36,349 nucleotides of DNA from positions 1 to 36,349 of the forward strand of contig CAJODZ010000014.1 in assembly GCA_905233645.1 (NCBI GenBank). Reading direction: 5' to 3'. The position numbers were made by a program, and so were the translations under genes. The notes under the pieces were generated by a model that was given only the letters and a program-made list of their open reading frames with translations, had not been told where the DNA came from and ran no database searches. Below are positions 34,815 through 36,005 of this stretch, one piece after another. Within the stretch, counting starts at the first letter, position 1, and each line of letters opens with the position of its first letter. This stretch comes from an uncultured Synergistales bacterium. GTDB taxonomy: Bacteria; Synergistota; Synergistia; Synergistales; Aminobacteriaceae.

Positions 34815-35735
34815 TTATAGACCGACGCGGTATAAAAATTCCCAGAAAAGCATTCTTGATATTCGTGCTAAGTTTAAAATTTTTAACGCACTCAATACAT
34901 TTTTTGTTATTTGTTTCATCGTTAAAGGTTTTTTCTCAATTTTTGACGCATTCAACATAACTTCAAAGGCTTGTTCTGGTGTTGTAATATTTTCGCCCCA
35001 AGCTGATTTTAAATAATAATGCCAGTATAAATATTGCGCTGGACTTCCTGTAACTTGCCATGACTTAGGTGTTGCTGGAGTATGAATAATTCTGTTGCTT
35101 AAATCATCTTTGGTTTTTGTAGTCATTTGATTGAAGCGTCCGTCTAAAAATTTCACGTGTTTAAAAAATAACGCGTTCAAAATATCTTGGTCAGGATATG
35201 GCACAACATGTTTATGACGTTTAAGCCATGTAACTCCCTTTTCAAAGAGATGGCCTATTTTACGAAGTTCTTTTAAATTCATATACATTACACCCGAATT
35301 AAAATAATCTTTTACATCGCAATCACCTAATTTGCATTTTAAAATTTGGTATTTATTTTTATTGACAGTAATCCATTTTGTAACCCATTCATCACGAATG
35401 ACACCGGCATAATAATTTTCTAGTTTTGTATCCCATAATTCTTTTATATCAAGATTGACAATAATGTCACAGTCAAGATAAATAATTTTATCCAATTTTA
35501 TAAGCTCAGGTATGAAAAATCTGAATGCTGCTCCGATTGAATAGGTGTGTTGGAAAAGTTTTAATGCATCGCCTTGAATTTGTTTAGCGTATTCCGTAAC
35601 GTCGATTAAATTAACTTCTTGATTATATTTTTCAGCTGTTCTTAAAAATTTTTGGCGGTTATCCTGCGTTAAAGTTTCATCGTGCAAAATATATATACAT
35701 ACGGGCGATTTAGTGTTCTCAAAAATCGAAGTCAT
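34815..35735 (-). CDS. GT8-family glycosyltransferase (5' end out of frame with its start site)
   Basis: LPS-type family 8 glycosyltransferase. KIIYLDCDIIV has the DxD Mn/nucleotide-sugar motif, FNSGVMYMNLKELR and PYPDQDILNALF are classic GT8 blocks, and the tail is basic and amphipathic (IARISRMLFWEFLYRVG-like). The coordinate starts at ATG 35735, but family homology continues upstream in the same frame: KISIALSVYDPKGTYSQHAGVV (to about 35804), so that ATG is internal. The frame has no ATG, GTG or TTG further up. The real start is probably TTG 35917 behind AAAGGAGG, separated by a heptamer repeat that is out of frame here. Probably adds a sugar to surface glycan. Confidence 0.85.
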   Translation of the reverse strand: MTSIFENTKSPVCIYILHDETLTQDNRQKFLRTAEKYNQEVNLIDVTEYAKQIQGDALKLFQHTYSIGAAFRFFIPELIKLDKIIYLDCDIIVNLDIKELWDTKLENYYAGVIRDEWVTKWITVNKNKYQILKCKLGDCDVKDYFNSGVMYMNLKELRKIGHLFEKGVTWLKRHKHVVPYPDQDILNALFFKHVKFLDGRFNQMTTKTKDDLSNRIIHTPATPKSWQVTGSPAQYLYWHYYLKSAWGENITTPEQAFEVMLNASKIEKKPLTMKQITKNVLSALKILNLARISRMLFWEFLYRVGL

Positions 35736-35821
35736 TACAACTCCAGCGTGTTGCGAGTAAGTGCCTTTAGGGTCATAAACTGATAATGCTATAGAAATTT
35801 TGTCGTTTGGGTTATCCTGTG

Positions 35822-35917
35822 TTAGGGTGTAATTATGGCTCGTGGCTCGTGGCTCGTGGCTCGTGGTGGCTCGTGGCTCGTGGCTCGTGGCTCGTGATTG
35901 TACTGTAAATCTGTCAA
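35822..35917 (-). CDS. Out-of-frame leader reading (OFF state) of the GT8 gene
   Basis: From TTG 35917, with AAAGGAGG 8 nt upstream, the frame reads MTDLQYNHEPRATSHEPP, then RATSHEPRAIITP and a TAA at 35822-35824 (31 codons). The repeat encodes HEPRATS-type heptapeptides. With a tract length divisible by three (one extra or two fewer heptamers) this frame joins the GT8 frame at NYTLTQDN. It is probably not a peptide gene in its own right. Confidence 0.6.
   Translation of the reverse strand: MTDLQYNHEPRATSHEPPRATSHEPRAIITP
35837..35895 (-). repeat. Heptanucleotide tandem repeat (ACGAGCC)x4-ACC-(ACGAGCC)x4
   Basis: On the plus strand GGCTCGT occurs four times, then GGT, then four more times, 59 nt in all. 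The unit is not a multiple of three, so each gain or loss by slippage shifts the frame. It lies between the ribosome site/TTG start and the conserved GT8 sequence. Confidence 0.95.
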
Positions 35918-35971
35918 GAGGTCAACCTCCTTTAAAATTTTTTGACGCGCTAAATTTTATCATGAACGCAC

Positions 35972-36005
35972 AAAAAACCCTCCCCGAATTTAAATCAGGA
36001 AGGGA
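35972..36005 (-). terminator. Terminator of secF
   Basis: Minus-strand CCCTTCCTGA pairs with TCGGGGAGGG (G-U pairs allowed), AT-rich loop, followed by TTTTTTG. It separates secF from the GT8 gene. Confidence 0.8.

Follow-up and report, generated by a model that had tools for sequence, protein, structure and literature searches.

A heptamer array as the putative translational switch of a glycosyltransferase family 8 gene and its relatives across a Synergistales genus

Sequence organization at a single locus and comparison across the genus together suggest that a heptamer array at the start of a glycosyltransferase family 8 (GT8) gene in an uncultured Synergistales bacterium serves as the switch of a translational contingency locus, and that it belongs to a genus-wide set of such elements. 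We consider slippage-driven phase variation to be the best reading of the array and put its probability at roughly 0.86. The original prediction of a heptamer reading-frame switch captured in the OFF state is the best-supported interpretation, now on the strength of the genus-wide comparison; its picture of a single switched GT8 gene, in contrast, has to give way to that of one locus among at least 11 in this genome and of a set that extends across the genus. All array lengths are those of draft assemblies, without reads, a second assembly of the species or expression data, and switching itself, like any effect on expression, is inferred.

Anatomy of the cassette at the GT8 gene

On the minus strand of the window (the whole stretch of 36,349 nt that was analysed), a terminator-like hairpin detected by consensus scan (35978..36004) follows secF, with the SecD_SecF_C domain directly upstream, and sets the GT8 unit apart from the secDF genes. 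The features discussed below all lie on the same strand. The -10 hexamer TAAAAT of a candidate upstream promoter, P1 (35954..35959), precedes, in this order, the Shine-Dalgarno (SD) sequence AAAGGAGG (35926..35933), the -35 hexamer TTGACC (35920..35925) of an inner sigma-70-like promoter, P2, the dinucleotide TC, the start codon TTG at 35917, ACAGATTTACAG, the P2 -10 hexamer TACAAT (35897..35902; 17 nt from the -35), the array, which begins at the end of this hexamer, and CATAATTAC... The array itself (35838..35896; 35895-35837 in the ACGAGCC register of the original prediction) consists of four CACGAGC units, CAC and four further CACGAGC units, 59 nt in all, and contains an internal duplication of 31 nt. 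It has the top tandem-repeat score of the whole window; exact matches to two tandem units occur only here (six overlapping hits), and a search that tolerates up to three mismatches gives 7 hits, where shuffles predict 0.96.

Translated from TTG 35917, the leader reads LTDLQYNHEPRATSHEPPRATSHEPRAIITP and, as sequenced, comprises 31 codons (35822..35917), its exit frame meeting a TAA that begins at 35824, 13 nt past the array. The minus-strand sequence thus bears out the claim that a TTG with an ideal SD leads into eight heptamers and on to this stop. The GT8 frame, HNYTLTQDNPNDKISIALSVYDPKG..., runs uninterrupted from the array to 34815 (34815..35837; 340 aa), and its product belongs to Glycosyltransferase family 8 by its match to PF01501 (137.9 bits against a curated cut-off of 24.3; E 5.9e-40), with phmmer matches to the LgtC-type structures 1g9r and 1ss9 (E 4.3e-19 and 1.9e-19, respectively). 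This frame was thought to lack a start codon altogether, which holds as far as residue 35; an ATG at 35735 exists within it and would give 306 aa. We regard this ATG as a poor alternative start because it lies about 35 codons in, past the first conserved stretch, KISIALSVYD. In an array-free GT8 relative (L055), the protein begins right at this stretch.

The distance from TTG 35917 to the GT8 frame is 80 nt, or 2 mod 3, and the re-derived arithmetic agrees with the expectation that one added or two removed heptamers (or four added ones) would bring the two into frame. Copy number would therefore decide whether the full GT8 is in frame, a criterion that is met by sequence only, and as sequenced the gene reads as OFF; loss of the GT8 product in this state is inferred. 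A contingency locus further calls for a repeat unit not divisible by three behind a start codon with an SD, which is the case here. We propose that transcription from the upstream promoter would yield an mRNA whose SD and TTG lead directly into the heptamer array, and that gain or loss of one unit through slippage, the inferred source of length change, would shift the exit frame by one position, since 7 leaves a remainder of 1 on division by three. In the window, the exit frame would then meet the TAA, leaving GT8 OFF, unless one unit is gained or two are lost, in which case the leader would be fused to the whole enzyme.

Related cassettes in the same genome and across the genus

Identical copies of the 33-nt leader are present at three sites in this genome, and copies with a single mismatch at a further two. 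By Pfam assignment, the genes behind it encode GT8, a DUF2284 protein, an MBOAT O-acyltransferase and a SAM methyltransferase, the fifth being an unassigned ORF, LAFVVPYYGKFPDYFPLW...; the heptamer copies at these five genes number 8, 7, 7, 2 and 1. A second type of leader, TTGACAAAATGCAAAAT..., with GAGCAAC units, is found upstream of two further GT8 genes and of Acyl_transf_3 and hexapeptide-transferase genes, with a shortened version of it on contig C46, while another GT8 gene, on contig C6, has a CACAG pentamer array. This brings the cassette loci in the genome to at least 11, five with the same cassette and at least six with related ones, a count that rests on pattern searches and sequence stretches in a draft of 94 contigs and 80% completeness, without a full array census. 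At one locus on C6 (L134, about 35700-36616), a TTGACA-ATG leader and five CACAG units are followed by a GT8 that is split over two frames within the gene.

GT8 relatives gathered by protein homology, without any DNA pattern, mostly display the same order of SD, TTGACA, NTG, TATAAT-like hexamer, tandem array and GT8, with units that include CGCCCAA, CGACCAA, CGCACAT and AATCAGG. Moreover, a pattern blind to repeats (GGAG, 1-8 nt, TTGACA, 16-19 nt, TANAAT) detected 181 sites in 29 of the 43 genomes of the genus, 1-12 in each, against 5 for the reversed pattern used as a control. This genome itself has none, since its cassettes depart a little from the pattern (TTGACC, or a weaker -10). A stricter pattern, applied to the rest of the order, gave 0-3 matches per genome, array presence not being checked, and the leader was absent from the viral contigs searched. 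Three matches to the blind pattern (L097, L107 and L113) are promoters upstream of tRNA genes and were left out of the array counts.

A tandem array follows 125 of the 142 collected elements, beginning 0-2 nt past the -10 in 121 of them. The unit measures 7 nt in 110 arrays, 5 nt in 13 and 8 nt in two, and in no case is its length divisible by three. An SD-like sequence is present in 25 of 29 elements that were selected without using the SD. A scan of the fetched DNA independent of the element recovered 101 perfect arrays, 88 of them with SD, -35 and -10, but this is a partial control only, given that the element itself was the reason for fetching much of the scanned DNA. The only perfect array of 6-nt units found, near position 706 of L124, is without the cassette, and two elements (L094 and L123) retain at most one repeat unit, perhaps as collapsed arrays. 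CRISPR- or REP-like dispersed repeats were also considered and ruled out, since the copies stand at gene starts with an SD and a start codon.

Contingency loci are further expected to differ in array length between homologous loci, and homologous gene pairs of 75-88% DNA identity usually do. Some pairs differ even in the unit, which nevertheless stays at 7 nt (CGCAGAA/CGCGACA/TAGCCAG; CACGAGC/GAGCAAC). For at least 11 elements a contig end is no more than about 70 nt away, and runs of N occur in some arrays, as expected where repeats break assemblies, although no comparison with chance was made. Contig ends lie only tens of bases from a cassette in G061 (C136 and C270), G032 (C33), G062 (C95), G004 (C41) and G022 (C19), and others fall beside one in G023 (C170 and C367), G003 (C31), G027 (C24) and G024 (C101).

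The embedded promoter and translation of the array

Around the start codon, the -35/-10 pair is conserved across loci at the DNA level, mostly with a spacing of 16-18 nt, and the -10 takes varying frames relative to the start codon (58, 13 and 35 elements in frames 0, 1 and 2, respectively). The frequency of the pair in the 142-element set is no evidence, much of that set having been selected by it; the conservation of P2 is instead supported by the GT8 homology set, by the set chosen by heptamers, in which the -10 is within one mismatch in 25 of 29 elements, and by the counts for the reversed-pattern control. The near-consensus pair directly before the arrays, in whatever reading frame, is what would be expected if TTGACC/A-17-TATAAT drove transcription and the array were a variable, untranslated 5' stretch that tunes expression, as at hmw1A, with frame irrelevant. 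We give this possibility little credence, because the arrays are preceded by an SD and a start codon and because stop avoidance and frame coupling point to their translation. A sense-strand stop, in any register, is present in only one of 56 distinct units, whereas antisense stops are present in 20; letter shuffles within units gave 6.9 units with sense stops on average, and just 0.34% of them were at or below the observed one. Such avoidance fits a coding array and would not be predicted for an untranslated one. In perfect heptamer units all three frames encode the same cyclic heptapeptide, none with a stop.

The relationship between array and gene, from which two classes can be recognized, points in the same direction. 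In class A, the gene frame is open through the array and the gene has no start of its own past it, which would be unexpected if frame were irrelevant. Called by one start-codon rule throughout, 21 of the 59 class A loci are in frame, 24 are one off and 14 are two off, a split compatible with equal thirds (chi-square p 0.26). In class B, which is defined by an SD-linked start (corrected by hand for L010), the gene carries an SD and a start of its own 36-127 nt past the array, and of the three exit frames one and only one is open to the gene start in 30 of 32 cases, compared with a mean of 7.4 and a maximum of 15 when the spacers are shuffled. The other two exit frames stop mostly soon after the array, and the open frame most often ends in a stop at +1 or +4 with respect to the ATG, which on sequence grounds alone is the geometry of translational coupling. 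We propose that at these genes a similar cassette feeds a leader, one frame of which would reach the downstream ATG while the other two would stop early; 5-6 of the 30 leaders are currently in the open frame. Stop avoidance and frame coupling accordingly speak against a pure promoter element, although an added transcriptional effect of array length via P2 is not excluded. The start codon is missing at the usual place in four elements; at L145, L187 and L192, promoter and array are intact and GCG stands where relatives have GTG, so that these loci are possibly locked OFF.

The frame split also bears on two further explanations of the window locus. Its out-of-register frame might mean that the GT8 gene is decaying and simply broken, the array being a dead repeat, but the 340-aa frame carries no other lesion, roughly a third of the genus's class A loci are in frame, and the same cassette precedes other intact genes; we assign this explanation almost no weight. 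Alternatively, the copy number could be an error and the real gene fixed in frame, for the genome is a draft (80% complete, 94 contigs) and short-read assembly can miscount repeats in an array with a 31-nt internal duplication. This seems to us very unlikely, as out-of-frame lengths are the majority over independent genomes and many loci, in near equal thirds. An ordinary repeat-bearing N terminus was ruled out as well: nearly all such loci would be in frame, and only 21 of 59 are.

Phase variation by slippage, which we favor, does not call for P2 and leaves its role unexplained. A -10-like hexamer is located 15-60 nt upstream of GGAG in 110 of 123 elements, against 42 in shuffled sequence, and the upstream P1 could produce an mRNA that bears the SD, whereas RNA started at P2 would be without it; P2 could even bypass the class B switch. 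An untested idea, which we consider unlikely but not far-fetched, is that P2 is a mutability module at which opening or initiation by the polymerase creates or destabilises tandem units. If so, dozens of contingency loci would share a transcription-driven generator of slippage in which the sequence of the unit can change while its length stays nearly fixed at 7 nt. P2 is not retained at every locus: on C46 (L127, about 5200), the GAGCAAC array reaches TTGACA and displaces the -10.

Precedents and the genes under the putative switch

In Neisseria and Haemophilus, the lgtC gene is under a repeat switch of its own, and LgtC-type GT8 enzymes (1g9r, 1ss9) are of the same family as the window enzyme, although the repeat type differs. 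The nearest precedent is neuO of Escherichia coli K1, carried by prophage CUS-3, in which AAGACTC heptamers lie just after the start codon, three units encode the heptad RLKTQDS and full length is attained only at multiples of three (PMC3046976). As in neuO, the window locus has heptamers at the 5' coding end of a putative surface-polysaccharide enzyme, with one copy-number class in three giving full length, and the share of OFF lengths is similar, at 65.6% (42 of 64 genomes) for neuO (PMC13001214) and 38 of 59 for the class A loci. By analogy, the locus is predicted to work like neuO without being a member of its family: neuO is a single prophage gene for an LbH O-acetyltransferase, whereas here a multi-gene cassette is involved, with a GT8 gene and CACGAGC units at the window locus, in another organism. 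Neither a leader-coupled class nor an embedded promoter is described for neuO in the accessible parts of these two reports (PMC3046976, PMC13001214). The supposed novelty of a heptamer on a GT8 gene is thus qualified, since a coding switch of this kind on a surface-sugar enzyme is known from neuO.

In Haemophilus influenzae, many genes are switched by tetranucleotide repeats, mostly within coding regions, and heptamers in the hmw1A and hmw2A promoters modulate transcription (PMC2651432). The present set is similar in having many repeat-switched genes per genome, many of them concerned with surface structures, and in the occurrence of heptamers, but differs in that the H. influenzae repeats are mostly tetranucleotides and its hmw heptamers are in promoters. 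Heptameric repeats are over-represented in bacteria yet little studied (PMC4692102). Our literature search, only in part directed at the phylum and with most subscription papers outside its reach, found no account of a phase-variation set in the phylum Synergistota or of this cassette set; within that scope, no description of the multi-gene cassette, the leader-coupled class or the embedded promoter came to light. The loci would constitute a large phase-variation set of many genes where the searched literature offered none for the phylum, with the leader-coupled class as a second output logic. Furthermore, arrays of unrelated sequence, mostly of 7-nt units, joined to a -10 would make the origin of repeat contingency loci directly testable.

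Given that the cassette, with its SD, start codon inside a promoter and heptamer array, stands before glycosyltransferases, acyltransferases and other sugar-modifying enzymes, the cell-surface sugars of these anaerobes could be reshuffled combinatorially, an inferred outcome. In a scan of 93 downstream proteins, a set that excludes most GT8 loci, Pfam families matched most often are glycosyltransferase groups 1, 2 and 4, MBOAT, Bac_transf, methyltransferases and Acyl_transf_3. Judging from these matches, the putatively switched genes are mostly, but not only, surface-polysaccharide genes, a minority matching families such as radical SAM and nitroreductase.
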